Shown here one piece after another: positions 4,651 to 22,743 of a stretch of DNA of 64,000 nt. Position 1 is the stretch's first letter. Each line of letters begins with the position of its first letter. Made by a program: the position numbers and the translations under genes. This DNA comes from Pyrococcus kukulkanii (lineage in GTDB: Archaea > Methanobacteriota_B > Thermococci > Thermococcales > Thermococcaceae): NCBI RefSeq assembly GCF_041647995.1, contig NZ_JARRIB010000004.1, positions 1 through 64,000 of the forward strand, written 5' to 3'. Below the pieces are notes generated by a model. It was given only the letters and a program-made list of their open reading frames with translations, was not told the DNA's origin and did no database searches.

Positions 4651-7386
4651 ATGATGCACATATTACTAAGGAAGGCAATTAAGGAGAAGTTTGGGAAGCT
4701 TAATAGTCTCCAATTAGAGGCTTTCAGGGTTATAGCGGGAGAGAAGAAAAGTGCTCTTATCGTAGCCCCTACCGGGAGCGGAAAGACTGAAGCTGCTATA
4801 CTTCCGATTTTTGAGATAATAATGAGAGAAAATTTACCTCCAATATCCGCACTATATATAGCCCCACTTAAGGCTTTAAACAGAGATTTACTGGAAAGGA
4901 TAAAATGGTGGGGAGAGAAGTTAGGAGTGAGCGTTGAAGTTAGGCACGGTGATACTCCTCAATCAAGAAAGGCTAAACAAGTTAAGAATCCTCCCCACAT
5001 CTTAATAATAACCCCCGAAACTCTTCCTATATTGCTCACGATGAAGTCCCTCAGGCAGTTTTTAAAGAACGTTAAGTTCGTTGTAGTGGATGAAGTCGTT
5101 GAGCTGGTCGATAATAAGAGAGGTGTTCAGCTAGCCTTAAACTTGGAAAGACTTTCTCTAATAGCGGATTTCATTAGGATAGGGTTATCGGCTACAGTTG
5201 GGAATGAGGAAGAAATAAGAGAGTGGCTAAAGGCTGACGTCATAATAAAGCCAAAAGTTAAGAAGAGATACAAATTCCACGTCCTCTACCCTAAGGTAGA
5301 AGAAGACGATGTAAAGCTTTCTGAGCAATTAAAAGTCCCTCCAGAAGTCGCTGCTAGACTTAGGGCTCTTTGGAATATAGTGGAGAAATCCAACAGAGCC
5401 TTAATATTTGTAAATACTAGGCAATTCGCTGAGGTGTTATCTCATAGGTTAAAGGTGTGGGGGAAGCCTGTGGAAGTTCATCACGGTAGCCTTTCGAGAG
5501 AGGCTAGAATTGAGGCCGAGAAGAAGTTAAAAGAAGGAAAAATCAAGGCATTAGTCTGTACATCTTCGATGGAGCTTGGGATTGACATTGGAGATGTTGA
5601 CGTTGTTGTCCAATACATGAGCCCTCGACAAGTTAATAGGCTAATCCAGAGGGCCGGGAGAAGCAAGCATAGATTGGGGGAAACAAGTGAAGCATATATA
5701 ATAGCGGTAACCCCTGAAGATTATCTTCAAAGCCTTGTAATAGCTAAGAGAGCTTTGGAAGGGAAATTAGAGCCTGTAAAACCCTATAAAAACGCATTAG
5801 ATGTTTTGGCTCATTTTATAGTTGGGTTAGTAATTGAGTATAATAAAGTTGACATTCATGAGCCGTATACGATAGCAAAACGGACCTATCCTTATAGGGA
5901 CTTGAGTTGGGAGGACTATCTCTCTGTTATCAGCGTTCTTGAAGATGCGAGGATAATAAGGCGAGAAAATAATGTGATTAAGCTTAGGAAAGGGGCATAT
6001 AGGTATTACTTTGAGAACTTGTCAACGATACCAGATGAGGTCAATTATAGTGTGATTGATGCAGTCTCAGGCAAATTCATAGGGAGGCTTGACGAGAACT
6101 TTGTGATGGATCTTGAGGAGGGAATGGAATTTATTATGCATGGGAGAAGCTGGCTAGTCCTTGAGATAGATGAAAAGAACAGGCTTATAAAAGTTAGGGA
6201 AAGCAGTAACGTTGAAGGAGCAATTCCAAGTTGGGAAGGGGAATTAATTCCAGTTCCCTATGAAGTGGCAGTTGAAGTAGGGAGGTTGAAGAGGCTCTTA
6301 GCCTATGATTTAAGGGGAGCTAAGGAACTCGTTAGGGGAGTTGATTTTGATGTTAAGGATTTGGAAATTGTACGAAACGAAATAATGGAACTATATTCAA
6401 CGGATAGAGACATTGTGATTGAGGTCGTTGGTAAAACAACTGTCATACACGCCGATTTTGGCAATAAGGTAAATGAGGCATTAGCAAAGCTCATTTGGAC
6501 TTTACTGTCCTCAAAATATGGTAACATATTTTCAATAAGGTCATATGCGCATGCGATAGTAATAAGATCTCCATTCACCTTGAATCCAAAAGACATTGAG
6601 GAGATCTTGCAGATAGGGCCTAACATAGGGGGAATTATAATTAGGGGGATAAAATTTGGCCCCATATATAGGTGGAAGACGTTGAATGTCGCAAGAAGAA
6701 TCGGAGCAATAGCTAGGGATGCAAAGATTAAACGTGTTGAAAGGTTATTCGAGGGAACAGTAGTGGAGTTCGAGGCAATCAATGAAATCCTGCAGGAGAA
6801 AGTTGACATTAAAAATGCAACTTTGGTGCTTTCCAGGGCAAAAAGCGGGGAAATAAGAATCAGATCGGTCATGAGAGAGAAGTTGAGCAAAACTGCTCAA
6901 CAGTACGTTAAGTTTGTGGGAGAATTCCTACTGACCCTTCCGCTTACGGAAGAAGAGATTGAAGATATGTTTTACAAATCCCTTCTTGAGAAGGATATAG
7001 TCATGGTCTGCACCAATTGTGGATGGTATTGGAAAACAAAGGTTGGAAGGGTTATCGAGAGGAAGGACTTAAGATGCCCCAAATGCGACTCAATGATGCT
7101 TGCTCCTCTACATCCTATTGATGCGGAAGCCTTTGTTAAGGCGTTGAAAAAAATAAAGCATAGAGAGCAGGTGGATAAAGAATTAGAGCGGGCGTACCTT
7201 AGGGGAATAAAAGCTGCTGATTTATTCATTTCTTACGGGGAGGATGCCCTATTGGCCTTAGCGACATATGGGGTGGGAGTTGAGGGAGCATCAAGAGTTC
7301 TTGGGAATGTTCCAAGAAATCAATTAATTCGTGAGTTAATGAAGCTAGAAAAGAACTACATAAAAACAAGGAAGTTCTGGGACTAA
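4651..7386 (+). CDS. lhr: Lhr-type superfamily 2 ATP-dependent DNA helicase
   Basis: About 911 residues. Walker A is APTGSGKTEAA, followed by the two RecA domains with SATVG (motif III) and LIQRAGRSKHR (motif VI). A winged-helix and DEAD-associated region comes next, then a C-terminal zinc pair (CTNCGW ... CPKCDS). Motif II reads DEVV where Lhr proteins usually have DEIH or DEVH. An upstream in-frame ATG at 4615 exists, but a TATA-like CTTTTTAAG at about 4622-4630 lies between the two, so the MM at 4651 is a likelier near-leaderless start. It is divergent from hjc. Confidence 0.85.
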   Translation: MMHILLRKAIKEKFGKLNSLQLEAFRVIAGEKKSALIVAPTGSGKTEAAILPIFEIIMRENLPPISALYIAPLKALNRDLLERIKWWGEKLGVSVEVRHGDTPQSRKAKQVKNPPHILIITPETLPILLTMKSLRQFLKNVKFVVVDEVVELVDNKRGVQLALNLERLSLIADFIRIGLSATVGNEEEIREWLKADVIIKPKVKKRYKFHVLYPKVEEDDVKLSEQLKVPPEVAARLRALWNIVEKSNRALIFVNTRQFAEVLSHRLKVWGKPVEVHHGSLSREARIEAEKKLKEGKIKALVCTSSMELGIDIGDVDVVVQYMSPRQVNRLIQRAGRSKHRLGETSEAYIIAVTPEDYLQSLVIAKRALEGKLEPVKPYKNALDVLAHFIVGLVIEYNKVDIHEPYTIAKRTYPYRDLSWEDYLSVISVLEDARIIRRENNVIKLRKGAYRYYFENLSTIPDEVNYSVIDAVSGKFIGRLDENFVMDLEEGMEFIMHGRSWLVLEIDEKNRLIKVRESSNVEGAIPSWEGELIPVPYEVAVEVGRLKRLLAYDLRGAKELVRGVDFDVKDLEIVRNEIMELYSTDRDIVIEVVGKTTVIHADFGNKVNEALAKLIWTLLSSKYGNIFSIRSYAHAIVIRSPFTLNPKDIEEILQIGPNIGGIIIRGIKFGPIYRWKTLNVARRIGAIARDAKIKRVERLFEGTVVEFEAINEILQEKVDIKNATLVLSRAKSGEIRIRSVMREKLSKTAQQYVKFVGEFLLTLPLTEEEIEDMFYKSLLEKDIVMVCTNCGWYWKTKVGRVIERKDLRCPKCDSMMLAPLHPIDAEAFVKALKKIKHREQVDKELERAYLRGIKAADLFISYGEDALLALATYGVGVEGASRVLGNVPRNQLIRELMKLEKNYIKTRKFWD

Positions 7387-7459
7387 TCCATACCAAAAGA
7401 CCTTTATACTTTGTAAAATTCCTAAACTTAAGGATCATTAAATAACGGGGGATGGGGCG

Positions 7460-9541
7460 ATGAGAAAGGTTAGTGCTTTAATTTTACTCCTGGTAATGTC
7501 ATCAATGTTATTAATTCCGGCCGTTAGGGCAGGAACGTATTACTCAAAGCTTTCGACCGTAGGTCTAAAACTTGGGGGAGTACTAAAGTTTGGGGATTAT
7601 GAGGTAAAGTTCAAGGACGTTACAAGCACTTGGGACAAGGTGATGATAGATATATATCATGGAGGGACCCTCGTAAAATCTCTAACCTTGCAAGAGGGAG
7701 AGCAAGGATATTATCCTTCCCAGGATGACGCAAAGATTATAGTAAAGATCTCAGGAATATGGGAAGATAAGGGAGTTGTTTATATTACAGTCTCAACACC
7801 CATGAAGATCCTTGAAGAGAAGCTTGTACTAAGTGAGGGCTCTTCATATACACTTCCTTCCCTGTTCCCACGGTACACGTTTAAAGTAGTCGATATACCC
7901 GAAGATGATAAGGTAAAAGTTAAAGTTACATATCCTGATGGCACTTCTGTGTACAAAGTTCTTGACAAAACTACTCCAATCCAGGTCTCATACAAGGTTT
8001 CGAGCGAACTAACTCAATCCCCAGTTGTTGTGGTTGAACTTGTTGAGGCAAAAAAGAACGATGAAGCCGTAGTCAATATTTATGTCCCCGAACTGTTTTT
8101 CACTAATCCCCAAGTCATAAACCCTGGGGAAGAGGAGGAAGGGCAACCTGTTGAAGAGGCAGATATAGTTCAGTCCGTCTATGAAGGAATTCTGTACGTT
8201 GGGGAAAGCTTAACGGTGGAATACAATAGCACAATATACAAAATAAACCTCGTCAGTGTCGGTTATTACTCAAGGTTTAAGCTCTTGGACTCTAACGGTA
8301 ACCTCATGGAAGAATTTACGATACGAGAAGGGACTGGTTACACATCAACTAAGGCTCCAATAAGAGTCGAGATTCCCCCAAATGGAGTCGATTTAACGTA
8401 CAATAGGACATATATAAAGGTCTACACTCCAGTAGGAGGAGTGGCTAAGCCCATTATAAGGGAAGCGAAAGTTACTGCCGAGTTAAGTGTTAGCGAAAAA
8501 TCCCTTCTATTGGGAGGAGACGAGTTAATAGTGTTCATAAAGGTTAAGAACGTAGGAAAAGGCAACGCCTTCCAAGTTAAAGTGATAGCGCCAGTTCCGA
8601 ATAACTTTGAATTAAGGAGTGGAATTGGAGCGTGGATTCTTAGTAGACTTGAGCCCTTCTCCGAGATGCCAGTGCTAGTTTATACATTAAAACCAAAGGC
8701 GGTGGGTACGTATACCCTTGGTCCCGTTGTAGTGGAGTATTACGATGAAGCCGGGAAGAAAGTTACAGTTAAGTCGAACATAATAGAGAAGATAACCGTG
8801 TATTCGACGCCTCAAATTAAGTTAAAGGCCGCTGGGTTCTCGAATTCGTCATGGTCTAATTACATAAAGACAGAGGAGAACTCTACGATAAAGCTGAGGT
8901 TTGTAGTATCGGCGACTGGGGCAAACCCCGAATATGAGTTTATAAAGAATGCAAAGCTCACCGTTAATCTTGGGGGATTTTTAGATGGTGAAGATGAGAT
9001 ATACTTAGGGACGATAAAGGCTGGAGAGGAAAAAGTAGTTGACGCTCAATACTTGGTATTGAAACAAGGGCTTTATCCAGTTAGCGTTGCATTAAAATAT
9101 CAAGACCCCTTGGGCAATTGGCATATTGTTAATTATCCGAACTTGGTCTTGGTTGATAGCGTACCTCCAAAAGTGAAGGTGTTGGTCAAAACCGAAACCA
9201 AAGTCATCGAAAAGCTACCATCACCAGAAGAACTTCCAACTATAGTCGAGGATATCCTTAAACAACAGAGTAATCCAGCTCCCCTGGCTTCAAGGATCCA
9301 GAATGTGACTGCAAAGTTCACCACTCCCAAAAAAGAACCAAACTATAAAGCGATAGCAACAGTACTTGGTGCTCTTGTCGTTGTCCTTGGTCTGGTGGCA
9401 ATAGGCACTGGATATTATATGACAAAGTACAAGGAAGAGCTAAGGAAGCTTCGGGCTAAAAAGAAAAAGCCCAGGCCAGGTGGTCTCCCAAAGAGGTCTG
9501 AGGATGAAAAGGAAGTCAAAGAAATAAATGTTGTTCAATAA
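7460..9541 (+). CDS. Secreted COG1361/S-layer-like protein with C-terminal membrane anchor
   Basis: 693 residues. The signal peptide is 1-24 (ends IPAVRA). Many beta modules follow, with a CARDB-like unit around 340-440 (VFIKVKNVGKGNAFQVKVIA). A membrane helix lies near 633-657, followed by a short Lys/Arg-rich inner tail. This topology fits an S-layer-associated or envelope protein. Purine-rich GGGGGATGGGGCG precedes the ATG. It opens a plus-strand run of surface genes that continues to 22.7 kb. Confidence 0.7.
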   Translation: MRKVSALILLLVMSSMLLIPAVRAGTYYSKLSTVGLKLGGVLKFGDYEVKFKDVTSTWDKVMIDIYHGGTLVKSLTLQEGEQGYYPSQDDAKIIVKISGIWEDKGVVYITVSTPMKILEEKLVLSEGSSYTLPSLFPRYTFKVVDIPEDDKVKVKVTYPDGTSVYKVLDKTTPIQVSYKVSSELTQSPVVVVELVEAKKNDEAVVNIYVPELFFTNPQVINPGEEEEGQPVEEADIVQSVYEGILYVGESLTVEYNSTIYKINLVSVGYYSRFKLLDSNGNLMEEFTIREGTGYTSTKAPIRVEIPPNGVDLTYNRTYIKVYTPVGGVAKPIIREAKVTAELSVSEKSLLLGGDELIVFIKVKNVGKGNAFQVKVIAPVPNNFELRSGIGAWILSRLEPFSEMPVLVYTLKPKAVGTYTLGPVVVEYYDEAGKKVTVKSNIIEKITVYSTPQIKLKAAGFSNSSWSNYIKTEENSTIKLRFVVSATGANPEYEFIKNAKLTVNLGGFLDGEDEIYLGTIKAGEEKVVDAQYLVLKQGLYPVSVALKYQDPLGNWHIVNYPNLVLVDSVPPKVKVLVKTETKVIEKLPSPEELPTIVEDILKQQSNPAPLASRIQNVTAKFTTPKKEPNYKAIATVLGALVVVLGLVAIGTGYYMTKYKEELRKLRAKKKKPRPGGLPKRSEDEKEVKEINVVQ

Positions 9542-9598
9542 TTCCCTTATCATAAATTTTATTTACAATACATTTTAATTTTCTTGGGAGGGAAAATT

Positions 9599-11659
9599 AT
9601 GAGGTGGATTAGTCCCTTAATATTAATGATGATCCTTTTGGCTCCAGTATCTGCCGTCGAGATGCTCGACTTTTCGGTGAATGTTGCTAAGGCCTATCCA
9701 GATGAAGAGAGAACTGAAAGGCTCAGCATAATTGTGATGGCTCTCTCCCAGGCCTTAAATAAGACTCCTTCCTTGTCAGCTGAAGATGTATGGAGAAAGG
9801 TTGAGAAGTTAATTTCATGGCAGAATGATGATGGGGGATGGGGATATTTTTATGGTAGCATTAGTTCAGTCCCCGATACGGGTTATGCCCTCATAGGGTT
9901 AAAGTACGCGTACGAGGCATTTAAGAATGAGCCTGAGAAGAGAGAGGAGATAAGGGTTGCGATACTGAACGGGATAAGATACCTGGAAAGGGCCTTTAGT
10001 GGAAATGGTTGGGGTTACCTCCCAGGAATGATTCCGGATTATAGAAGTACACTGCTTGCTTCAGCGGCTTTAACTCTTTTAGGAGAGGACTTAGACTTAG
10101 TGAGGAGGGCATATCCAATTATTAAGGAGAAACTCCCAAGCGATCCTTACCTCCTGCATTTGTGGATAACAGTTGCATACAACATGGAAGGTAAGATTCC
10201 AGAAGAATCCCTGAAGCATTTCGGTAACCAAGAGGGTGCCATGGCCCTTGAGGCCTATACCCTCCTGAGCCTAAAGGGATTGGACTTTCAAACAGCATTA
10301 CTGTTGGCAGAACTTGAGGAGTACAGGCACAATTGGACGGACAAGTACTATCCCTTGTACTCCACGATGGCGTTTTCCTTGGTCTCAGAGAACGTCGTTG
10401 GGCCAAGTGAAGACAAGTTGAAAAAAGTTTGCACGATCCTTGAGGCCTCTCAGAATGACGATGGAGGATGGGGAGTGTACGTTGGCTCTCCATCAAGTGC
10501 CTCGGTTACATATTTCGTGCTGGATTCCTTAAGGATATGCAATCCTATGAGCGAGGCCGTTAAAAGAGGGCTTGAATACATGCGTGGAATTTACAAGAGA
10601 GATATGGAGGAGATTAAGTTCGATAAATATCTCAGGCAGTCTTATCTCTTCGCTTTATTGTCCCTCCTTGAGTATAGGAACCTAACGTACTCAGAGAGGG
10701 AAGAAGCAAAGTCCCTTATATTATCTTCATTCTGGGGCGATAAATTTGGCAAGCAACCATTAATTACTGCACTTGCAATTAAGGCATTAACGATGCTTGG
10801 AGTCCCTAAGACAGATAAGGTCATAGAAGAGAACCTAGATTGGCTAATGGAAATGAAGGAAAATGGTGGCTGGGGCTTTATATTTGAGACGGATTTGTCA
10901 TCTTGGTACTTTGCTCCCATGTACCCTGAAACTACGGTAATCTTGTACTTGATAAAGGACCTTGTTCGGCCGAATGATGTTCAAGATGTCGTTGAGTACG
11001 TAAAGGATAATCCCCCGAGGCAGGCTTGGGAGTTGCTTAGTGCATACTTAACGCTCAAGGAAATGGGAATTAATCAGAGCATCGAAGTTGAAATACAGGA
11101 ACCTGGGAAGAGCCCATTGTACGATTCTTTCCTCGTTAAATACTACACGGTTAATCCTGAAGTCCCGAGGGTTAACATATACACCGTTATCTCGAAGTTC
11201 AGGAACTCAAGCGTGAAGATAATATCCACGGATCCAGGCTTGTCCACTATAGTTGCGAAAGGTTTGGAGAATGTACTCTCTGCAAACACCTCGATTAGGC
11301 TAACGGAGCTCATAAGGATTCCGGAGTCTGGGGACTACATATTGATATATCCCGTGGGTAGGGTGGATGTTTCAAGGTACAACAGCGATGTGAAAATTTA
11401 CATCAGAGCGGGGCATCTAACGCTTAATGGGGTGCCCTTGTCCGGCGATGGTACCCTCATAATAATTCCGGGAAGAAACAGGGACGGAGAGTTATTGTTC
11501 GTTCTTTATAGGGGAGAAGGGTACAAGGACATTGCCAACCTCATATTCAACAGCCCGATCCTTAAGTACCTCCATGGAAAGGCCGTAATTGCCTCTTGGG
11601 TGGACACGAACAAGGATGGGAAAGTTCAAGTAGAAGAGCTGAGTGTGAAGTTTCTCTGA
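9599..11659 (+). CDS. Secreted prenyltransferase/squalene-cyclase-like alpha-alpha repeat protein
   Basis: 686 residues. The signal peptide ends LLAPVSAVE. The body holds repeated alpha-alpha hairpins with the marks WQNDDGGWGYF, SQNDDGGWGVYVG and MKENGGWGF, typical of the (alpha/alpha)6 toroid of prenyltransferases, terpene cyclases and complement-like proteins. The C-terminal ~180 residues are different and end with a single EF-like stretch (DTNKDGKVQVEELS). A TTG at 9584 is possible, but GGGAGG at 9587-9592 sits properly before the ATG at 9599. An extracellular binding or scaffold role is likelier than catalysis. Confidence 0.7.
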   Translation: MRWISPLILMMILLAPVSAVEMLDFSVNVAKAYPDEERTERLSIIVMALSQALNKTPSLSAEDVWRKVEKLISWQNDDGGWGYFYGSISSVPDTGYALIGLKYAYEAFKNEPEKREEIRVAILNGIRYLERAFSGNGWGYLPGMIPDYRSTLLASAALTLLGEDLDLVRRAYPIIKEKLPSDPYLLHLWITVAYNMEGKIPEESLKHFGNQEGAMALEAYTLLSLKGLDFQTALLLAELEEYRHNWTDKYYPLYSTMAFSLVSENVVGPSEDKLKKVCTILEASQNDDGGWGVYVGSPSSASVTYFVLDSLRICNPMSEAVKRGLEYMRGIYKRDMEEIKFDKYLRQSYLFALLSLLEYRNLTYSEREEAKSLILSSFWGDKFGKQPLITALAIKALTMLGVPKTDKVIEENLDWLMEMKENGGWGFIFETDLSSWYFAPMYPETTVILYLIKDLVRPNDVQDVVEYVKDNPPRQAWELLSAYLTLKEMGINQSIEVEIQEPGKSPLYDSFLVKYYTVNPEVPRVNIYTVISKFRNSSVKIISTDPGLSTIVAKGLENVLSANTSIRLTELIRIPESGDYILIYPVGRVDVSRYNSDVKIYIRAGHLTLNGVPLSGDGTLIIIPGRNRDGELLFVLYRGEGYKDIANLIFNSPILKYLHGKAVIASWVDTNKDGKVQVEELSVKFL

Positions 11660-11671
11660 GGTGATAGCGAC

Positions 11672-12772
11672 GTGAGGGCTATAATAATAGGGATAGGCCA
11701 GTGCGGAACCAAGATTGCTGATATATTCTCCCTTGTAGATTTTGAGGCCTTAGCTATTAACACCTCTAAAGGAGACCTGGAGTACCTGAAGCACATACCC
11801 CAGGACAGGAGAGTCCTGATAGGTGAGAGCATAGTTGGAGGTAAGGGAGTTAACGCCAACCCAGTCCTGGGAAGGGAAGCCATGAAAAGGGATCTTCCGA
11901 TGGTCATGAGGAAAATAAGGTCTTTGGTAGGTTACGAAGACGTTGATATCTTCTTCTTAACCTTCGGATTTGGGGGCGGAACGGGAGCTGGGGGTACTCC
12001 AGTTTTAGCGGAGGCCCTCAAGGAGGAGTATCCAGACTCCCTCGTAGTCGCTATAGGGGCCCTCCCCTTAAAGGAGGAGGGGATAAGGCCAACCATTAAC
12101 GCCGCGATAACCATAGACAAGCTCTCCAAGATAGTTGATTCCATAATCGCCATAGACAATAACAAGCTCAAGGAGAGCGGAGAAGATATAAGCCAGGCCT
12201 ATGAGAGGATAAATTACGCGATAGTTGAGAGGATAGCTTCTCTCTTGGCATTAATAGACGTTCCTGGGGAGCAGACCTTAGATGCAAGTGACCTAAAGTT
12301 CGTTTTAAGGGCCATGGGAAGCTTTGCCACCGTTGGCTACGCTAAGGCAGATGCATCCAAGGTGAAGAGCTTGTCAAGGCTTATAGTGAGATCGTTCGAG
12401 AACGAGGGTTTGTACCTCGACGTTAATATAGAGTCCGCCCTATACGGCCTAGTCGCTATCCACGGTCCCCCCGAGGCATTGAAGGCCAACGAGATATTTG
12501 AGGCACTGAACGAACTCACGGGGAGGATAAGGGGAAAGCAGATATTCAGGGGCTTCTACCCAGACCCCAGGGAGAGGGAAGTTGAGGTTGTGACCCTATT
12601 GAGCGGGATCTACGATAGCAAGAGCATAGAGGATATAGTCGTTACAGCAAAGAGGTACGCTCAAGAATTCATGAAGGCCAAGGAAGAAGGGGAGATCAAG
12701 AAAAGGCAACTTTTAAGCGGCCTACCAGATTTCGATGATATCTACCCGGGTGAGATCAATGATCAAAGTTAA
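11672..12772 (+). CDS. Tubulin/FtsZ-superfamily GTPase, CetZ-like
   Basis: 366 residues with a GTG start after GAGGTGATAGC. The N-terminal Rossmann part begins MRAIIIGIGQCGTKIAD. The nucleotide T4 loop is GFGGGTGAGGTP (residues 99-110). The T7-like segment LDASDLKFVLRAMG carries acidic residues expected to help hydrolysis in a polymer. The pattern fits the archaeal CetZ group rather than division FtsZ1/2. CetZ proteins shape cells and organise surface appendages in haloarchaea. Its place between secreted-protein genes and a pilin-like cluster is suggestive. The C-terminus overlaps the next gene by 14 bases. Confidence 0.8.
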   Translation: MRAIIIGIGQCGTKIADIFSLVDFEALAINTSKGDLEYLKHIPQDRRVLIGESIVGGKGVNANPVLGREAMKRDLPMVMRKIRSLVGYEDVDIFFLTFGFGGGTGAGGTPVLAEALKEEYPDSLVVAIGALPLKEEGIRPTINAAITIDKLSKIVDSIIAIDNNKLKESGEDISQAYERINYAIVERIASLLALIDVPGEQTLDASDLKFVLRAMGSFATVGYAKADASKVKSLSRLIVRSFENEGLYLDVNIESALYGLVAIHGPPEALKANEIFEALNELTGRIRGKQIFRGFYPDPREREVEVVTLLSGIYDSKSIEDIVVTAKRYAQEFMKAKEEGEIKKRQLLSGLPDFDDIYPGEINDQS

Positions 12773-13352
12773 GGATTCGGTTGAAGTTGCGCTGGAGTTG
12801 GATGAGAAAAGCGTTTACTCCCACATAGCGCACGAAAGCGCCGAGGACATAATAAGGATAATCTCCGCCATAGATGCTGAAAGAGCAAGGCTTAGGGGGA
12901 TTGAGGTTTATTACGAAGATGACTGGGACGAGCTAATTAGGGAGAGGATAAGGAAGGGGAAAAGGCATACCGCCTTTGACTTTTACAACCCTGAGCTTCT
13001 GGAAGTTTGGGAGGAAAAGGTTAAGGAGGCGAAGAGGTACATTAAACTGTCCAAGTATCTCCCGATGACCATCCTCTTCTTTACGATAGTTACTGCCATA
13101 GTGACGATCCTCATTCTAGTTCCCGTGGTGATAGTGGGCCTTGCAACGCTTCCCTTGGCCCTGTACTTCCATGAGATGTTCAAGGCGAATGCCGATCTAA
13201 GGTACCAGGAGTTGGTTCAATTCTTCATATATGAGTTAAAAGAATTAATTGGGAAATTCGGCCTTGATAGGAACAAGTACAAGTTTGAGCTATACAACAG
13301 GGACTATAAAGGGGTTAAATTCATTAAAGGAGGTAAAGCAGTCGTCGAGTAG
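12759..13352 (+). CDS. Membrane protein of unknown function coupled to the CetZ-like gene
   Basis: About 197 residues. The start ATG at 12759 has GGGTGAG at 12749-12754 inside the end of the CetZ-like gene, so translation is probably coupled. The longer frame from 12735 lacks such a site. An N-terminal soluble region rich in charged residues is followed by two close membrane helices near 107-145 (LPMTILFFTIVTAIVTILIL; VVIVGLATLPLALYF) and a C-terminal soluble part. It could anchor the tubulin homologue to the membrane; that is inference. I do not recognise the family. Confidence 0.65.
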   Translation: MIKVKDSVEVALELDEKSVYSHIAHESAEDIIRIISAIDAERARLRGIEVYYEDDWDELIRERIRKGKRHTAFDFYNPELLEVWEEKVKEAKRYIKLSKYLPMTILFFTIVTAIVTILILVPVVIVGLATLPLALYFHEMFKANADLRYQELVQFFIYELKELIGKFGLDRNKYKFELYNRDYKGVKFIKGGKAVVE

Positions 13353-13434
13353 CGGTATTTTGGGCTTAGCCGATCAAATTTGAAGGATAAATGTTAAATA
13401 AGCTCTCGTGTAAAATACTTGAGAAGGGATAACG

Positions 13435-14049
13435 ATGAGGAGGGGTCAGATATCACTCGAACTGATGTTCTTAATGATTGTGTTCATGCTCATTTTAGTT
13501 TACTCCCTAAGATTGGTGACATTTACAAGCTCCTCATCTCAGGATGTCATCGCTCTTCAAATTGGAATCGAAGCTAAGGGATTTGCAAGTGCAATATCCA
13601 ACGCTATAAGTCAGGTTTATGCTCAAGGCCCCGGGGCAAAAGTAACAGTTAATTATAGGCTAACATACCTGCGAGATAAAGAATACCTTAGTAAAGCATT
13701 TGCCCTAAATAACCCGACGATAGCTATTTCATACTTAAATGGAACTTATGTAATGCTTTTAAATGGGAGTGGAACTGTATTAGTAAATCTTAGGGGGCCC
13801 TATAAGAACGTATTTTGGGCAAACTCTCTATATAAAGAGGATATCTTAACTAATACTTCAGTCTTTCCTGACCTAATTCCAAATGTTAATTTTGATGGAA
13901 ATATGGTTAATTTAGCTTGCATAAAAATACCCCCTAGCAATTTACCAAAAATGGTGAAAATAGTTGTCGAATGGAATCCAGATAATAGTGAGAGTTGGGT
14001 CTATAATGTAACTTCAGGTGAATTGGTTATAAAGATAAATCCAAGGTGA
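13435..14049 (+). CDS. Type IV pilin-like protein
   Basis: 204 residues. It starts MRRGQISLELMFLMIVFMLI: a short basic leader, Gly, then QISLE followed by a hydrophobic helix. This is the class III signal of euryarchaeal pilins, cleaved after Gly by an EppA/PibD-type peptidase. The rest is beta-rich with several Asn-x-Ser/Thr sites. GAGAAGGGATAACG precedes the ATG. It is the first of six consecutive genes with such N-termini. The region is very AT-rich compared with most of the window. Confidence 0.75.
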   Translation: MRRGQISLELMFLMIVFMLILVYSLRLVTFTSSSSQDVIALQIGIEAKGFASAISNAISQVYAQGPGAKVTVNYRLTYLRDKEYLSKAFALNNPTIAISYLNGTYVMLLNGSGTVLVNLRGPYKNVFWANSLYKEDILTNTSVFPDLIPNVNFDGNMVNLACIKIPPSNLPKMVKIVVEWNPDNSESWVYNVTSGELVIKINPR

Positions 14050-14055
14050 GTGACG

Positions 14056-14511
14056 TTGAGATGTGAAGGCCAGCTAAGTATTGATTTCTTGTTTGCTATA
14101 ACCCTTATTATGGTACTATCTGTAGGAATAATTGAAATTGGAATTCAGGAAAGTGAGAATACCGAGGCATTTTCGATAGCGTCAAAAATTAAAGTCTTTG
14201 CAGTTAGCACCCGAGATTTGATAACAAAGGCTTATAGTATAGGGCCAGGCTATTCGATTAGAGTTAAGTTTCCCATCTCTCTCTCCCAGGGAGATTATGT
14301 TAACATTATCCTGACGGGAGATGCTGTGGTGATCAATGCAAATATAAGTGATACTTTATACTCAACAGCTGTGAAACTGCCAATTAGAGTGTCCTCTCAT
14401 ACATCCGTATTAATAACTGAAAACTCTCCTGACTTCTGGATTATTGCATATTATAATGAAACTAAAGGTGGTGTAGATGTCAAACTCGCGAAGAGCCCAG
14501 ACGGCCATTGA
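14056..14511 (+). CDS. Type IV pilin-like protein
   Basis: About 151 residues. A TTG at 14056 (MRCEGQLSIDFLFAITLI) preceded by AGGTGAG (14044-14050) gives a leader just like the other five genes. A GTG at 14050 would overlap that ribosome site. The leader reads Gly then QLSID plus a helix, again a class III signal. It begins a few bases after the stop of the previous gene, and its end overlaps the next gene by 35 bases. Confidence 0.7.
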   Translation: MRCEGQLSIDFLFAITLIMVLSVGIIEIGIQESENTEAFSIASKIKVFAVSTRDLITKAYSIGPGYSIRVKFPISLSQGDYVNIILTGDAVVINANISDTLYSTAVKLPIRVSSHTSVLITENSPDFWIIAYYNETKGGVDVKLAKSPDGH

Positions 14512-14974
14512 AGGACTGCTCTTGATGAGTATTGTGGTATTATCCATTGTTATAGTTATACTACCTTATTTAGAGAATTCTCGGGAGGCCACAATTCTTC
14601 TCCGGCTCAAGGATTCTGCGAGTTTTAGTGCTTCTTATATTACAAATGGTGTTGTAATCGGGGAGGAGAAGTTCGACCCATTAAATAGTGTTATTAAAAA
14701 TTACACAGGATCTTCAGGAGTAAAATTTTCATTCCTCGGACTTAAAATAGTAAGGGAAAACTCTAGTGAAATTGTAGTGCTGCTAAAATTTTCCCATAAT
14801 TTGAATCTAACAAAAGATAAAAACTCTAAAATCGCAAAACTTATTGGAGAATTTGTCGAAGATTCATTAAAAGATTTGTCAATTATTAGTACTTATAATG
14901 GAAAAATGTACAGTGGTGAAAAACATCTCATATTAAATATAACAGTTGAAGATGGATGGAGCGTGATAAAATGA
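14477..14974 (+). CDS. Type IV pilin-like protein
   Basis: 165 residues. The leader MSNSRRAQTAIEGLLLMSIV has the QxxxE signature but Ala instead of Gly before the Gln, so processing may differ. One membrane helix spans about 11-30 and a short extracellular domain follows. The start lies inside the end of the preceding gene, indicating a tightly packed operon. The bases are very AT-rich: 13 of 60 at 14881-14940 are G or C. Confidence 0.65.
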   Translation: MSNSRRAQTAIEGLLLMSIVVLSIVIVILPYLENSREATILLRLKDSASFSASYITNGVVIGEEKFDPLNSVIKNYTGSSGVKFSFLGLKIVRENSSEIVVLLKFSHNLNLTKDKNSKIAKLIGEFVEDSLKDLSIISTYNGKMYSGEKHLILNITVEDGWSVIK

Positions 14975-16680
14975 AAAGAGCTCAAATATTTTCACTTGAT
15001 GCATTTATAGCATTAACCTTAACAATCCTACTTATAGGTACAATATCAGCAACGTCTGAATCCTTAAGGAATGCAATATCTTCCGTTGTTTCGTGGTATG
15101 AGAGGGCGAATATTCCAGACAATATGTTAGATGTTCTTTTAAAAACTCCTGGAGAGCCCTCTAATTGGAATGAGGATCTAGTTTTATTAAAAAGCATTGG
15201 GCTCAGGGAAGAGGATTCACCCTTTATATCCTACGAGAAGGCTTTAATGTTTTTTAATCTTGTGGAGAATCAGAATCCTCTAGTTTTGGACTTTCTTAAG
15301 AATCTAAGTTTAGGAAAGCCCTTCTGCTTTGAGTTTTATCTTGGTGTATGGAATTTCACAGCAGACTTTACATGGAACCCTAATGCTAGCGGAGTTTTAA
15401 GTGAATTTGAGGTTTACTCTGGCGAGTGTACCATTAGGGGGAATAGAGAGTTGACGTTTACTGATCCAACTATAATCCAGTGTGCTCCTTTTGATGTTAG
15501 GGGCTCGGCTTCAATATCGAGCGATGCTCCTCTCTGCATTCTTGGGAGTGTCGATACCCACGGCTCCTTAACAATAACAGTGGGTAATTATCCTCCCCTA
15601 GCAGGTGGTTCTTATCCTTACTTGGCAATTAATGGGGACTGGGTTATAACCGGAGCTGTAACCGTTAATGTAGGGGGAAATGCCTACATAGGCGGAGCAT
15701 TAATAGTTAGAGGAGAAGGCGCTAGAACAATAAACATTGCAAAGGATCTAGTGATATTTGGAGACAACACCACTAATCCTTATCTTATTGACATATCCGG
15801 CTCTGCCACGATTAACATAGGAATTTCAGGCTATCTTCCTGGAAACCTTTACCTTAAAGTTGGAAATACGTGGTATGCCTCAAATAAGACTGGGGAATGG
15901 TACGAGTGGAGTGGAGAGGGGTGGAGGAAGGTTAGCGAGCCCCCCGTTATAAGGACAACTGGAAGTTCCACATTGAACATAAACGGCTATCCACTCTCTG
16001 AGACTTGGAGTCCTCCAACTCCACCCCCATGCTTTACAGCTAACCTCCCCATTGAGGTCTCTTCGGTAAATTTGGATTACACTTATCCACAGGCTCTTAA
16101 CAGATCTGAGGCATGGGGCAGGGTTGCCTACTCCAAGAACGACTTCACGGTTAATCTCGTTGAGATACCAGAAAACGCTAGCTGGGTTGAATATGCTAGC
16201 AGGGTTGTATCCGTTGACATGAGAAAGTACAATACAACGATAGAGGTCACGTCAAACTACACGAGACTTATCTCAGGTGTTCTTAAGTACACCCCTCCAG
16301 CCTATGCAAGGTTCGAGATTAGGGTTCCAAATGAGACTGGTTATGCCCTGTTCATAATAGTGGATGGGGAGGAGATGAAGCTCCTAGGTGTCGTGAAGAC
16401 GAGGGTTTCCCCTTATGTTCAGGCATATCTGTGGACGAATGCTACTGGAAACGTAAGTCTGCAGAAGACCTATGTGGGCAATGAAACATCAGTCAGAATA
16501 CGTTGGGTTGACGTGTTCTCTGAGTTCTCAAGTGAGACCGGGAAGCCCATTGAGATATGGATTTACGAAACGAACTTTAGTGATCCTATATATATTATTG
16601 ATGAGTACAACATAGGGTTGTTGCTCGATAGGAAGTATGAGCTGGGGTTGGTAAAGCTGTGGGTGTGGGATGAGAGATGA
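14971..16680 (+). CDS. Large pilin-leader surface protein with beta-repeat region
   Basis: About 569 residues from the ATG at 14971 (ATGA overlap with the previous stop). A start at 14956 is also open. The leader MKRAQIFSLDAFIALTLTIL matches the QxxSxD-helix pattern. Residues ~165-300 form a repetitive beta region rich in Gly, Val, Ile and Asn (TITVGNYPP, VTVNVGGNAYIGGALIV), resembling a small beta-solenoid. Beta-rich domains with many glycosylation sites follow. It is far larger than a normal pilin, so it may be a tip adhesin or a wall-exposed anchor. Confidence 0.6.
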   Translation: MKRAQIFSLDAFIALTLTILLIGTISATSESLRNAISSVVSWYERANIPDNMLDVLLKTPGEPSNWNEDLVLLKSIGLREEDSPFISYEKALMFFNLVENQNPLVLDFLKNLSLGKPFCFEFYLGVWNFTADFTWNPNASGVLSEFEVYSGECTIRGNRELTFTDPTIIQCAPFDVRGSASISSDAPLCILGSVDTHGSLTITVGNYPPLAGGSYPYLAINGDWVITGAVTVNVGGNAYIGGALIVRGEGARTINIAKDLVIFGDNTTNPYLIDISGSATINIGISGYLPGNLYLKVGNTWYASNKTGEWYEWSGEGWRKVSEPPVIRTTGSSTLNINGYPLSETWSPPTPPPCFTANLPIEVSSVNLDYTYPQALNRSEAWGRVAYSKNDFTVNLVEIPENASWVEYASRVVSVDMRKYNTTIEVTSNYTRLISGVLKYTPPAYARFEIRVPNETGYALFIIVDGEEMKLLGVVKTRVSPYVQAYLWTNATGNVSLQKTYVGNETSVRIRWVDVFSEFSSETGKPIEIWIYETNFSDPIYIIDEYNIGLLLDRKYELGLVKLWVWDER

Positions 16681-18770
16681 GGAGGGGATTTATATTTACG
16701 CTTGACGTTCTCTTAGCTTTCATCCTAGTATCCACAATAGTTGTGGGAGTAGTTACAACTCAAATAAACACCCAATCACTGTATCAAACCTACATGAGAG
16801 AGCAGAGCATGAAGAGTGCGGGAGATGTGTTAACTATTTTGAGAACCGTTCCCCTTAATCAGTTGGTTCCAGGGGACGTTATTAAGGAGTGGATTCAGAA
16901 TGGAACCCTTAATACAACCCTTGTATCTCCTGACATGTCTCCTTTAGACATTTTGGCTACTTACTGGGCCATACAGCCCCTATACCCTTCTGTTGACTAC
17001 AAGAGAAGGGCAAAAACGGTAATTAACTATGTTCTCCAGCGCCTTCTCCCTGGCTATGGGTACGAGTTTGTAGTGAGCAATGAATCATTTATTAGAACTT
17101 CCAACCCTCAGGCGGCAGAGGACATTTCAACTTCTAGTATGGTTCTTAGCGGATATTCTTATAACAGAACTCCTAGAGGATACGTTGCTAGAGCATATCT
17201 TACGAGGGCTACTGTAATAAGAGAGGATTTATACGGATGGTTCAGAGTTCTTGCAGGCGGCGGGGATAATGTTCTCAACATAACCAGAGTGATTCACCTC
17301 CCCTCCGATGCTCAGATATTGGAGGCTGACGGGAAGTTCGTTACGAGGCAGGGAGAGAGGGTCACCCTATATATTAATGGAAGGCGTGTTAGTAGGAGAT
17401 ATGACCAGATAAATATCAACGATTTAACGGGATATTTGCAAGGAGGAGATAATGTATTTTCTTTAGTATTTGACGATGGATACGATGAAATAGGTTCGGC
17501 GAGTGGTACTACGGTGTATGTCAAGTACAAAAGTAACAGCTTGGAAGTTGAGGATCCTGGATTGATAAGGATCTATAATGTAATATCCGAAAGAACAGGA
17601 ATAATGTATCTACTTGAAATGTTCGTTCCCGGGAATATAACTTCAATAAATATGAAGTTTAAGGTAAGAAATGTTAACATTGTGAGGCTGTATTATGGAT
17701 TTGGAGGGAATTTGTACCTTCTCCTAGAAAAATATGCAAACCCCAACGGAGATGCTATTGTGGAGTTTACCGATGATGAGATTAGAACTAAGGTCAATGA
17801 AGTGTTATGTGGAGGTAATGACTGTTATGAAGAATTCAAGAAAAATATAAGCAGGATGGTGTTTGATTTCGTCATTGGCTTTGACGCATATTATGAAGAT
17901 GGAGACTGGTACTATGAAGGATACGACTATAATCAGTGGAAAAGGGAAAAGGAAAGAATAATCTACGGTTACCCTGACTCTTATGTGAAAATAGAGTACA
18001 TCCCAAGAACAGTGAGAACAATGTACAGCATCCCAATCTCTATATACTTCCCTTACGGTGACTCTAGGGTCTCATATCCAGGTCAGGGGCTGAGGGTCGA
18101 GTATTATTTACCTCCTACCGCTGAGCCATGGTATGCAGACTGGTGGGTGGGTTATAGATTCAGGGATTACTCCACAATCCAAAATCTATACGAAAACAAT
18201 AGGAGATTCTATTCTGGGCCTCTCGGAAGGTATGCCATAAGGGTTGCTTACACTAGGCTTTACGACTGGATGATGCAACCAGGTCAGAACAACGTTTTTG
18301 AAATTAAAATGACAAATGGAAACTCTTATGTAAGAAACGGAGAAACTAGAGGGATAATTAAATACTTCATTCAAGGTTACGCTGGTTATGGCGATGTATT
18401 CCCTTACCTACTTCAGGGCTATCCCACATACAAGGGCTACAACCTCACCTACTACTATTACAACGGGAGAACAACAGAGGAGAGAACAATACTCGTAGGA
18501 GATTCACCTTACAAAGTTATTTCGGTTGAGGATTTAGATCCAACAAAGTATGCAGTTGATGATGCGGTTCTAAGGCTGTTCAACCAGCTTAACTATTTGA
18601 ATGACCTAAATCCCGGAGACTGGAAAGTTCCACCGTACGATGGCTCTCAGCAGAATCCAATAGATGTTGACCTCCCAGCAGGGGTGACCATTCAAATGGC
18701 AAGCATGGGTAATATTCCGGGATTATTTACTCCAATAACTGTGACACTTAGGATATGGAGGGAGTCCTGA
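16677..18770 (+). CDS. Large pilin-leader surface protein
   Basis: 697 residues. ATG 16677 overlaps the previous stop (ATGA). It begins MRRGFIFTLDVLLAFILV, the same basic-Gly-hydrophobic layout as its neighbours. The body is Tyr- and Asn-rich and beta-like without motifs I recognise. It carries an acidic Asp/Glu/Tyr-rich stretch (YYEDGDWYYEGYDYNQW). An extracellular structural or adhesive role is likely. Confidence 0.6.
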   Translation: MRRGFIFTLDVLLAFILVSTIVVGVVTTQINTQSLYQTYMREQSMKSAGDVLTILRTVPLNQLVPGDVIKEWIQNGTLNTTLVSPDMSPLDILATYWAIQPLYPSVDYKRRAKTVINYVLQRLLPGYGYEFVVSNESFIRTSNPQAAEDISTSSMVLSGYSYNRTPRGYVARAYLTRATVIREDLYGWFRVLAGGGDNVLNITRVIHLPSDAQILEADGKFVTRQGERVTLYINGRRVSRRYDQININDLTGYLQGGDNVFSLVFDDGYDEIGSASGTTVYVKYKSNSLEVEDPGLIRIYNVISERTGIMYLLEMFVPGNITSINMKFKVRNVNIVRLYYGFGGNLYLLLEKYANPNGDAIVEFTDDEIRTKVNEVLCGGNDCYEEFKKNISRMVFDFVIGFDAYYEDGDWYYEGYDYNQWKREKERIIYGYPDSYVKIEYIPRTVRTMYSIPISIYFPYGDSRVSYPGQGLRVEYYLPPTAEPWYADWWVGYRFRDYSTIQNLYENNRRFYSGPLGRYAIRVAYTRLYDWMMQPGQNNVFEIKMTNGNSYVRNGETRGIIKYFIQGYAGYGDVFPYLLQGYPTYKGYNLTYYYYNGRTTEERTILVGDSPYKVISVEDLDPTKYAVDDAVLRLFNQLNYLNDLNPGDWKVPPYDGSQQNPIDVDLPAGVTIQMASMGNIPGLFTPITVTLRIWRES

Positions 18771-21700
18771 TGAGGAAGGGATTTATAATTAATGCCTCGA
18801 TCCTCGTCCTCTTAATCCCCATAATCTTGCTTTTAGCTACTTATGAAGAGGTGTCATCTCAGGTAGCCCTCAGTCAAAGCGAGAGGACTTACTCTGAGAG
18901 AGTCTATCAGGTGATTTCTGCACTTCAGCTGGAATTTAAGAGAGCTTTGGAGATATCTGGAAAAAGGGCAATTATTGCTGTTATAGACTACGTTGCGGTA
19001 TCTGGAAACTTCATATCTCCAACGTATGGTGTCAACAACACGATAAGGGATCTGATTTTATCAGGTGGCTCTCCCTCAATTTCTGGATACGATGTAGAAA
19101 GAATCATGGGGAATCAGACCATAGAGGGATGGCTGAAAGAGGTGGCAAATCAACTTAGGAAACAAGGCTTAGTTTTTGGAATGGATGAAGATGAAATAAT
19201 AAGCAACACTGAGATTTTAGTTGCTCCTCTGGATTCATTTAGGATTGTGATTAAGGGAAGGATAAACAGGATAGTTGTTAAAGATGTCTCAGGTAAAGTA
19301 ATCTATGAGGGCAGCATTCCCGAGAAGGGCTATGTATATTCGGTGGTTGACTTGAACGGACTTGAGGATCCAATGTTTTCCGCCATTACGGGAGGTAGAT
19401 ACCAAAGGGTTTTGAGGGCATGCAAGTACGCTTATCCAGAGATCTTCACCAAGCCGATAAAGTTTTTGGAGGGAGCAGGGGTTAGTAGCTATTCCCCAGT
19501 GGTTGGAAGGTTCTCGACGGCAGTTTCTTCGGACACAATATATATCGGTGAAAGTTACCCTGGGGATGGGGCCTTAGCTTACGTTCTTAAGGAGGGAGAT
19601 TTCTCTCAAACAACATCTCCAATAATAGTGAACACAACTCTTGATGGAGAGATAGTTGATCCAACTGAAGTGCTCACGGAAGGTGGTATGGGTGTGCTTG
19701 TGTTTGGGAGCAGCGTGACTTGGTGTAATTACACCTATCCGTATAGAGTTGCTTTCACGATTCCCTCCGATTACATTGGAAAATTAGTCCTCTTAGAGTT
19801 TAACGCTACCCAGTATCCCTTTAGGATAATCCCACACTCTGGAGAATTTGGAGCATTAAGAATATATGGCTCTGACTGTGCAGAGGCCAGCTACTGGATA
19901 GAGTACTGGGGCAATGATAAAGTGCTTATCTGGCTAAGGCCAACGGTGACAACTTACTACATCTACTACTCAAAATCTGCAGATGTTCCCTTCTTGAGGG
20001 GTTCAATAACATCTGTCTTTGGAGCGAATTATACTGTTGATGTTAGGGTTTTGGCAGGGGAGAAAATATCTCTGTTCTCAACTCAGTCAACTCAGTTCTT
20101 TGTGAGGTATAATTTGTCGGCATCTTGGAACAATGACTTTAACGGAGGAATTGAGATAGGGTTTACAGGTGTAGGATTTTCAGGCGTTAGGGTTTGGGAA
20201 GTGTCTCTGGACTATCCTCAGACTGTTACCGATGTTCAAGTTCCCATATACCTAAACAGCACTATAGCCGGCCTAATTCCACACACCGTCACACCACCTA
20301 AAGCAAAGATAAAAGTCTACGCTGACAGTGAACTTACCAGAGAGCTCCCTTTCTGGATAGAATACTGGGACAATAGCGGGGCACTTATTTGGGTTAAGAC
20401 CGATATACCTAGCACCGTCTACATAGCCTACTCCGACTCTTTCCCATATACTAGAGGAGATGGAGATTCAGTATTCTTGTTCTTTGATGACTTCAATGAG
20501 AGTTCAATTAATGAGCTAGAACAGAAGTGGGTAATATTAGGTCAAATAGGTGGCCTAGACCCAACTGGGAATGGGACTCTTACAATATTAGGAGGGAATA
20601 GTGTATTAGCTCTTCGCACAAGAAACTCTCTCACTATCAACTACCAGTTTGCCGTTAGATTTAGGATGAGACCTAACTTTGAGTATAATGATGACTGGGA
20701 TGCTGGGATAGGGCTTGAGGATTATTATGTGAGCAATGAGGGCTATCGCCTCCTTCTGTTCACTGATGATATTGGGGATAGACAAGATTTCCTAGCCCAA
20801 CATCGTGCATGGTGGCGGTATGAAAGTTCAAGCTCAGATGAAAGGGGGGATTACTCGTTCCATACATATTCTGTTGAGATGACCAATTACTACAGAAGGA
20901 GAAGGAGATATCGTGGAGATTTCACGTTCAGAGATATAACCGCTTCAAATAGACAAGAGAATACTGGTAGTTGGAGCTTTAGATATCCGCTCCTTTACTT
21001 ATATCTCGTCATTGATAGTGAATCTCAATCAAGAGGGGCAATCTTTGATTGGATATTCATTAGAAGGTACATAGACCTAAGCTCACTCTCTCAAAGTATT
21101 ATTGAGCTTGGAACCCCAGTAACGTTCCAGTTCGTAGACAACTGGACTACTGAGAAGCTCTTCATTCTGAAGGACTGGAATGCCTTAGCCAGCTACTCAC
21201 CTGGCACTTGGTTCATATCAAGCCCCAATAGGTATGAGGTTAGAATTAACACAACACTAGGCCTAAACTTCACTTACACTCATGAACCTCAAGCCTCTTC
21301 CGAAACTTCCCAAGCTTACATTTCTGGAGCTGTAATATCGCCAATTTCAGTCTATCTGGTTGTCAGCAATACTCTCAATAATGCTGGATACTTCTCTTGG
21401 GTGATCTGGGGAACATCGTACATAGAGTATTCACCCCGGCTCTTAGAGGAAGAAACTAAGCCACCAGAGAATCTTGCGAAGGTTTATGACATTGAGCCTT
21501 TTCTGCTCTGCATAAACGAGCAGGAAAGGGTTGGCAATAAAGAGGGTGAAATAGGATACTTCGGCGTTTCATGGGGCATGTCCTTCTTTGAGAGGCTTGA
21601 GGGGAGCACGGAGAATCATGAGAAATACATCACCCTTGCAAAAGGAATGCAGGAAGAGCTTGGCCTTGCCAAAAATGGACTCTACTATCCGATAGGATTA

Positions 21701-22003
21701 GTGAGCTTCATGATACCAACAGATAGTATGACCTATTATTTTGATGAGAAACTCAATAGGCTATTTCTGACAGTTCTTCAAAAACCTCCAGAAGAATATG
21801 TCAATAGTGTTGACTTCTGCTTTCTTGATCACTATTTCCCAGGGAAGCTTTCCATTAATAGCCCAGTTTGTAAACAACAGACGTACAGGGTTTATGGAAT
21901 TTCAGACTCTCCTGATAGGAAGGGAGTCTACTTCTTTATTGACAACACAACTGCCATGTCTCTATTTGGTATCACAGGTGCATCTGAATTGTTGCAGAAG
22001 TAG
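18770..22003 (+). CDS. Very large pilin-leader surface protein with DUF2341 domains
   Basis: About 1077 residues. The ATG at 18770 overlaps the previous TGA (TGATG) and has GAGGGAG upstream; a start at 18755 is weaker. The leader is MRKGFIINASILVLLIPIIL. Two DUF2341-type modules are seen (CNYTYPYRVAFTIPSDYIG near 320 and LDYPQTVTDVQVPIYLNS near 485), a family common in archaeal surface proteins. A jelly-roll-like segment with Arg-rich YYRRRRRYR follows. Three Cys near the end may form disulphides. A probable surface adhesin or filament component, the last of the six pilin-like genes. Confidence 0.6.
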   Translation: MRKGFIINASILVLLIPIILLLATYEEVSSQVALSQSERTYSERVYQVISALQLEFKRALEISGKRAIIAVIDYVAVSGNFISPTYGVNNTIRDLILSGGSPSISGYDVERIMGNQTIEGWLKEVANQLRKQGLVFGMDEDEIISNTEILVAPLDSFRIVIKGRINRIVVKDVSGKVIYEGSIPEKGYVYSVVDLNGLEDPMFSAITGGRYQRVLRACKYAYPEIFTKPIKFLEGAGVSSYSPVVGRFSTAVSSDTIYIGESYPGDGALAYVLKEGDFSQTTSPIIVNTTLDGEIVDPTEVLTEGGMGVLVFGSSVTWCNYTYPYRVAFTIPSDYIGKLVLLEFNATQYPFRIIPHSGEFGALRIYGSDCAEASYWIEYWGNDKVLIWLRPTVTTYYIYYSKSADVPFLRGSITSVFGANYTVDVRVLAGEKISLFSTQSTQFFVRYNLSASWNNDFNGGIEIGFTGVGFSGVRVWEVSLDYPQTVTDVQVPIYLNSTIAGLIPHTVTPPKAKIKVYADSELTRELPFWIEYWDNSGALIWVKTDIPSTVYIAYSDSFPYTRGDGDSVFLFFDDFNESSINELEQKWVILGQIGGLDPTGNGTLTILGGNSVLALRTRNSLTINYQFAVRFRMRPNFEYNDDWDAGIGLEDYYVSNEGYRLLLFTDDIGDRQDFLAQHRAWWRYESSSSDERGDYSFHTYSVEMTNYYRRRRRYRGDFTFRDITASNRQENTGSWSFRYPLLYLYLVIDSESQSRGAIFDWIFIRRYIDLSSLSQSIIELGTPVTFQFVDNWTTEKLFILKDWNALASYSPGTWFISSPNRYEVRINTTLGLNFTYTHEPQASSETSQAYISGAVISPISVYLVVSNTLNNAGYFSWVIWGTSYIEYSPRLLEEETKPPENLAKVYDIEPFLLCINEQERVGNKEGEIGYFGVSWGMSFFERLEGSTENHEKYITLAKGMQEELGLAKNGLYYPIGLVSFMIPTDSMTYYFDEKLNRLFLTVLQKPPEEYVNSVDFCFLDHYFPGKLSINSPVCKQQTYRVYGISDSPDRKGVYFFIDNTTAMSLFGITGASELLQK

Positions 22004-22023
22004 AGACAAGGAGGTGGCTTATC

Positions 22024-22743
22024 TTGGATATAATAAATATACTAGACAGAATAGGATGTTGGACTCAAAACGTGATAAAAGTGCTTAAGCTTTTTTTCTT
22101 CCCTAAACCCTTAAATAGGCCTCCAAAAATCAGACTTAAAAAGTATACAATCCATGAAACATTCAGCCTATATCTTCAGCTTGTTTTCATACTATACCTT
22201 GTCATAGGGGTTTTGATGATAATAGCAAAAATGCCAATTCATGCTGTTCTTGCCTTATGTATTGTGGCATACCTTGCTATTAGGTTTATATTGATCGCTG
22301 GAGCTAATTTTATCATTAATGTCCCCGCATATAGATTTTTTTATTATGGTCTTGTAGGCATATCCTCTGTGGCGTTTGTTGGATATATGATCCTAAGAAG
22401 AATTAAAAATGACCCGATGTACTTGTATGGGTTTATTGGGAGCATTACAGTTGTCGTTCTTGCGTTTAGGAGTTATTTTAAGGTAAGATTTGGGAGAGAT
22501 TACACATACGGTGTCGTAGAAGAGGTAAAGGGTGAGCTAGCGAAAGTATTTGTGCATGATGATATTAGTGCCAATGTTAAGCCTGGCTATTACTGGGTGA
22601 CGTGTAACCTTAAAGTTAAACCAGGAGATTTAGTTAAGATTGCTATAGAGAACAAAACATTAAGAGGTGCCATCCCTAAGGGGGTTATTGAGGTTGCTCA
22701 ATCCTCCCAAACCAAAACCGAGCCAAAGGCTGAGACCGAGTAA
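22024..22743 (+). CDS. DUF2101-type membrane protein
   Basis: 239 residues from a TTG start with an excellent GGAGGTGG (22010-22017) upstream; no other start has one. Four membrane helices lie at about 48-70, 72-95, 103-125 and 135-150. They are followed by a soluble beta-domain (YGVVEEVKGELAKVFVHDDI) and a Lys/Glu tail. I recall this layout as the Thermococcales DUF2101 family. It follows the pilin-like run by 20 bases, so it could be a platform or export partner for it (inference). Its end overlaps the next gene on the other strand by 46 bases. Confidence 0.6.
   Translation: MDIINILDRIGCWTQNVIKVLKLFFFPKPLNRPPKIRLKKYTIHETFSLYLQLVFILYLVIGVLMIIAKMPIHAVLALCIVAYLAIRFILIAGANFIINVPAYRFFYYGLVGISSVAFVGYMILRRIKNDPMYLYGFIGSITVVVLAFRSYFKVRFGRDYTYGVVEEVKGELAKVFVHDDISANVKPGYYWVTCNLKVKPGDLVKIAIENKTLRGAIPKGVIEVAQSSQTKTEPKAETE

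Follow-up and report, generated by a model that had tools for sequence, protein, structure and literature searches.

In Thermococci, according to the excerpted text of Makarova et al. (2016, PMC4858521), loci for type IV pili of clade 1 combine genes for a GTPase of the FtsZ family and a squalene cyclase with those for DUF2341 proteins and no fewer than five minor pilins; the excerpt credits the link of the GTPase and the cyclase to Szabo 2007 and describes the DUF2341 proteins as proposed tip adhesins. Brown and Duggin (2023, PMC9856176) reported that all the Thermococcales cetZ regions that they analyzed are associated with pili and have a conserved gene order, and they proposed a scaffold role. 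Published work already includes the link of CetZ and the squalene cyclase to pilins as well as the proposals of DUF2341 adhesins and of a scaffold, and no experiment testing the tubulin–pilus link in Thermococcales was found in the literature searched. Proteins that combine a pilin part with a bulky functional module, for which a place at the tip has been proposed, include Streptococcus sanguinis PilB (PMC8179133) and GspK of the type II secretion system. Thermococcales also possess VARTIG proteins, which are secreted and carry hypervariable Ig modules, with a C-terminal domain that varies via recombination between Thermococcales (PMC8416519). The locus analyzed here shares its type, plus additional membrane proteins, with the clade 1 pili of PMC4858521, but it also displays conserved ends, variable middles, and exchange between lineages, which the excerpted text of that paper does not describe.

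The window, namely, the whole 64-kb stretch of DNA that was analyzed, comes from a Thermococcales genome of 2.05 Mb in nine contigs (G000). Between 7460 and 22743, it carries 11 plus-strand ORFs, numbered g2 to g12, which lie head to tail with overlaps or small gaps; a helicase gene (4615–7386) lies upstream, and the next genes past 22743 are on the opposite strand. The product of g2 (7460–9541) is a secreted Ig-like protein of 693 aa with a signal helix (residues 4–22), a C-terminal membrane anchor (transmembrane helix at residues 631–649), and weak matches to TRAP_beta/DUF11-like Ig. The next gene, g3 (9599–11659), encodes a secreted squalene-cyclase-like toroid protein of ~686 aa with a signal peptide; translation more probably begins with the ATG at 9599 than with the TTG at 9584. 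CetZ (366 aa) is encoded by g4 (11672–12772), which is overlapped by g5 (12735–13352) for a protein of 205 aa with two transmembrane helices; the start of g5 may be at 12759. Three genes for putative minor pilins follow, namely, g6 (13435–14049; 204 aa; leader MRRG/QISLE), g7 (14050–14511; 153 aa; leader G/QLSID), and g8 (14477–14974; 165 aa; leader A/QTAIE), and then three for large modular pilin-like proteins, g9 (14956–16680; 574 aa; leader A/QIFSLD), g10 (16677–18770; 697 aa; leader G/FIFTLD), and g11 (18755–22003; 1082 aa; leader G/FIINAS). The last gene, g12 (22024–22743), encodes a DUF2101 protein of 239 aa with four transmembrane helices (DUF2101, E = 7e-65). A DUF2341 module had been predicted among the large pilin-leader proteins from the letters of the DNA, and it was found in g11 (E = 3e-17). 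No NCBIfam family was matched by g5 to g9 or by g11, and a weak NCBIfam match of g10 to DHFR was judged to be due to chance. A promoter and terminator scan, of which the model is bacterial and the host archaeal, gave promoter-like sites not above chance. An archaeal TATA-like run at ~7402–7409, ahead of g2, and the 82-bp gap between g5 and g6 are suggestive only.

We compared the locus with 20-kb loci from 67 further genomes, which cover six genera and make 68 loci with the window; all the family members that were found served as queries in the census. CetZ, g5, and g6 to g11 were present in unbroken order in 68 of the 68 loci. g3 was present in 65 of the 67 other loci (absent from L087 and L094), and g12 was undetected in one (L035). 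From g4 onward, neighboring genes usually overlap by a few bases, and the sole gap is that between g5 and g6 (median of 38 bases). Among the 67 other loci, g2 and the preceding helicase gene are confined to the genus of the window; outside this genus, the upstream gene is a conserved one that, by eye, resembles that of the wyosine enzyme TYW1. A preliminary description of the window had presented the 11 strand-uniform genes as one cluster and had named neighbor conservation in related genomes as the check on it. The CetZ pair and the pilin-like genes are linked in the same order in 67 of 67 other loci, and this conservation of order and content indicates that the cluster is not due to chance. 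The view of CetZ and the pilin-leader genes as one surface-filament system agrees with this linkage but is not new (PMC9856176; excerpted text of PMC4858521), and the locus is the already known, standard minor-pilin locus of Thermococcales type IV pili. We read it as the accessory locus, for minor pilins and tip, of the Thermococcales clade 1 type IV pilus, which would have exchangeable heads and a scaffold of CetZ and g5, and we put the probability of this whole model at roughly 0.7.

The product of g4 matches Tubulin (PF00091, E = 2.7e-30) and CetZ_C (PF21011, E = 6e-16), and the solved structures most closely related to it are 4b46, 4b45, and 3zid, all of them CetZ structures. The GTP-binding glycines (GGGTG) and Asp207 of the T7 loop are invariant in the 68 CetZ sequences; by these sequence features, g4 is a CetZ and a predicted GTPase with intact motifs. 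It is the sole CetZ_C match among the three tubulin-family genes of the source genome. Within Thermococcales, CetZ and the pilins alike are universal, the CetZ orthologues are 81 to 98% identical, and the few genomes without an orthologue are incomplete or fragmented assemblies. Weak matches to transmembrane regions aside, neither CetZ_C nor g5 was found in 21 genomes of the class from outside Thermococcales. Candidate g5 homologues in G096 and G113 were discounted, since their weak profile matches span only the transmembrane and C-terminal region, and the g5 family was found only in Thermococcales. The two transmembrane helices of g5 lie near residues 105–143, and conservation is highest in the soluble N-terminal half, which is taken to be cytoplasmic. 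The structural model of g5 is almost wholly helical and has no known structural relative, and a fold search gave no convincing known fold. The CetZ, its conserved pilin neighborhood, and the proposed scaffold role are the same as those of Brown and Duggin (2023, PMC9856176); the gene order in 67 further genomes, the restriction of g5 to Thermococcales, and the absence of exchange in CetZ and g5 while the tips are exchanged go beyond that study.

In the least certain step of our model, g5 would tie CetZ to the membrane, and the pair would form a cytoplasmic scaffold that localizes or anchors the pilus machine. We advance this step tentatively, at somewhat below even odds, and the same caution applies to the earlier suggestion that CetZ may position pilus assembly. 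Because CetZ and g5 are never exchanged with the tip alleles, such a scaffold would touch only constant parts. It is also quite possible, though less likely than not, that CetZ is a mere neighbor of the pilin genes, in which case CetZ and g5 would work in cell shape or in some other process and would owe the shared operon to expression or to history. The CetZ of Haloferax acts in cell shape (PMC9856176), and the median pairwise identities of CetZ (83%) and g5 (56%) show that these proteins are conserved, whereas the pilins are not (24 to 41% for g6 to g11); moreover, CetZ and g5 do not follow the exchanged alleles. By contrast, adjacency without a break in every locus of six genera, with genes that overlap or nearly touch, argues for a closer connection, and a CetZ–pilus link has been reported in Halobacteria as well (PMC9856176).

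No secretion ATPase, TadC, or prepilin peptidase gene was found in the window or in the loci of the 67 relatives, unlike the clade 1 pili in the excerpted text of PMC4858521; in the source genome, these genes lie at other places. Contig C3 carries the one non-archaellar pilus operon, which encodes a DUF515 protein, a secreted protein, an intein-containing PilB, and two TadC proteins. A prepilin peptidase with an Arc_PepC domain is encoded on contig C2, together with three small stand-alone class III pilins, which are candidate major pilins. The expectation that the cluster would borrow its assembly machine is borne out by the single DUF515–PilB–TadC–TadC operon outside it. The minor pilins, DUF2341, the FtsZ-family GTPase, and the squalene cyclase occur together in one locus, and the genome has the secretion ATPase and two TadC proteins expected of clade 1, an assignment based on these features. 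DUF515 was detected in 92 of 94 Thermococcales genomes, including all 74 of good quality, and the clade 1 machinery is present in all 74. The PilB intein carries a LAGLIDADG homing endonuclease (L066:12777-16202, which equals G000:C3 ~302776-306201). In G007, the nearest relative with the locus, the pilus operon has a DUF515 gene that is split and contains an in-frame stop (G007:C1:891993-893319), which may mean either an impaired pilus or an assembly error.

Each of the g6 to g11 proteins has a single N-terminal hydrophobic helix. A match to the Pfam class III signal was obtained only for g6 (23.5 bits, for a cut-off of 23.7) and, with 17.2 bits, for g8; the remaining leaders (g7 and g9 to g11) were read by eye and by conservation across genera. 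An acidic residue occupies position +5 in g6 to g8; g9 and g10 have a conserved Asp at +6, not +5, and the leader of g11 has no acidic residue at +5 or +6. Of the six claimed pilin-like leaders, those of g6 to g8 thus have the acidic +5 residue, but the leaders of g9 to g11, which are below Pfam detection, are atypical in sequence. GspK of type II secretion has its place at the tip without an acidic residue at +5. The lack of this residue in g9 to g11 fits a tip position, as in GspK; alternatively, these proteins could escape processing as pilins. In the first step of our model, the archaeal prepilin peptidase of the genome would cut g6 to g11, and the single PilB–TadC machine would assemble them via their N-terminal helices on a shaft of small class III pilins. 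The same genes might instead give rise to an independent adhesin complex (bindosome-like), either short and pseudopilus-like or anchored to the surface, and not to a clade 1 pilus tip; this reading would suit the atypical leaders of g9 to g11, their very large ectodomains, and the location of the PilB operon apart from the locus. However, the genome has only one non-archaellar PilB–TadC operon, and the excerpted text of the published analysis assigns such proteins to the clade 1 pilus (PMC4858521). We consider a separate complex unlikely.

The g6, g9, g10, and g11 proteins have conserved ends and variable middles. Along g10, sequence identity is ~50% over the first 200 residues, 24 to 38% in the middle, and 64% at the C-terminus; along g11, it is 62% at the N-terminus, falls to 7 to 15%, and then reaches 34 to 48%. 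Across loci, the lengths range from 331 to 834 aa for g9, from 640 to 878 aa for g10, and from 359 to 1217 aa for g11. A long g10 (~843–878 aa) is paired with a short g11 (~359–377 aa) in L038, L077–L079, L082, L086, L093, L098, L104, and L110, as if a module had moved between them or there were two allele types. The model of g10 (pLDDT 85) begins with a long N-terminal helix and continues with an alpha/beta part up to residue ~175 and with mainly beta-sandwich up to ~600, after which come another helix and a final strand at residues 684–695. Foldseek matches of this model with good E-values included the cellulose-synthase protein BcsB, glycosidases, and further proteins of the jelly-roll type; the global TM scores were near 0.1, so these matches suggest only a domain type. 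No pilin was matched by g10 in Foldseek, a viral fold library yielded nothing more specific than tail, capsid, and jelly-roll proteins with low TM scores, and the solved structures included no sequence relatives of g10 or g11. The preliminary description had proposed beta-solenoid-like modules in the large pilins; for g10, the model instead shows beta-sandwich domains, and it suggests that the middle is made of domains of the sort seen in carbohydrate-binding modules. In the second step of our model, the conserved N- and C-terminal parts of g6, g9, g10, and g11 would fit the filament, and these proteins would be located at the tip of the pilus, with surfaces, glycans, or other cells as their binding targets. 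S. sanguinis PilB and GspK are bacterial proteins, whereas the g10 module has conserved parts on its N- and C-terminal sides and is swapped between species.

Comparison with G007 located the exchanged part of g10. The other g2 to g12 proteins are 87 to 100% identical between the two genomes, but the DNA identity within g10 drops abruptly to ~45% across 17206–18702 (plus strand; approximately residues 177–676) and then recovers, so that both flanks are near-identical. The edges of this segment (~177 and ~676) lie near the first and the last of the boundaries in the g10 model. The N-terminus of the G007 protein is 96% identical to that of the window, whereas its middle shares 61 to 62% identity with alleles from three other genera. 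In a tree of the g10 N-terminal part, the window and G007 are placed together with a support of 88; for the middle, the grouping of these two was rejected (p-AU 6.8e-35), as was the genus as one clade (p 1.6e-7, with one divergent row left out). In the whole 64-kb window, the only shared genes for proteins of >150 aa with under 70% identity to G007 are g10 and an AAA ATPase gene (31729–32757). Genes of the window that are divergent from or absent in G007 comprise two AAA ATPase genes adjoining an ABC permease, a further AAA ATPase gene, and an insert of two genes (31729–32757, 32874–34187, 25730–26872, and 40547–42072).

The same pattern recurs among close pairs of loci (CetZ ≥ 96% and g5 ≥ 88% identity; n = 20). 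Replaced segments in g6 to g11 were counted by eye in 18 of the 20 pairs, which share members and are not 18 independent events; no replacement was seen in CetZ or g5, and two were seen in g3. Single middles were replaced separately in g6, g9, g10, and g11 between L089 and L100, and a block from g6–g8 to the start of g12 was replaced in L084/L091, L085/L101, and L097/L098; the C-terminal part of g12 is constant and limits the exchanged block. The remaining two pairs are uniformly similar and serve as a control. The g3 protein is only 45 to 49% identical, beside 99% for CetZ, between the close species L049/L089 and L100/L109; because g3 is replaced in this way and is missing from L087 and L094, variability is not confined to the pilins. 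Taken together, the identities and trees demonstrate at the sequence level that middles of g10 have been traded between species and genera. In the third step of our model, as the sequences and trees show, middles are exchanged between Thermococcales lineages either singly or as the block from g6–g8 to the start of g12. Rapid divergence in place under relaxed or diversifying selection would explain why every pilin gene of the locus is variable, as surface proteins often are, but it is very improbable in view of the sharp edges inside one gene (~95% against ~45% DNA identity), the likeness of the G007 segment to alleles of other genera, the p-AU of the g10 test, and the uniform similarity of the pairs without replacement.

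In Neisseria, antigenic variation of pilin alters the exposed part by recombination, and the N-terminus is kept. Silent donor cassettes of the pilE/pilS type were considered for g10 and rejected, because the genome holds no donor copy of the variable segment. The source genome has a single copy of g10 and lacks the G007 allele, of which G007 itself has one copy; this indicates that the variable segments come from other lineages and not from an internal cassette store. The locus thus differs from the Neisseria system in having no silent copies and in that the variation affects minor pilins, not the shaft pilin. VARTIG (PMC8416519) was rejected as an identity for the large pilins, which are different proteins in a different arrangement; the gene content of VARTIG varies, whereas the pilus locus is fixed and its order is conserved. 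No report of conserved ends with variable middles in these pilins, or of trade of the middles between lineages, was found in the literature searched, which covered few subscription journals.

It is possible, at just short of an even chance, that the binding heads of tip pilins are traded across genera through recombination at their conserved ends, while CetZ, g5, and the machine stay fixed, and that this trade provides strain-specific recognition of surfaces or partners or escape from pilus-binding viruses. What deserves further attention is this trade of pilin heads across genera next to a CetZ–g5 pair that does not vary. A fixed CetZ and g5 next to swappable tip proteins offer a clean way to test the tubulin–pilus link. 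If the exchange governs attachment or recognition, the locus would be an archaeal counterpart of the variable adhesins of bacteria, working through trade between lineages and not through silent cassettes.
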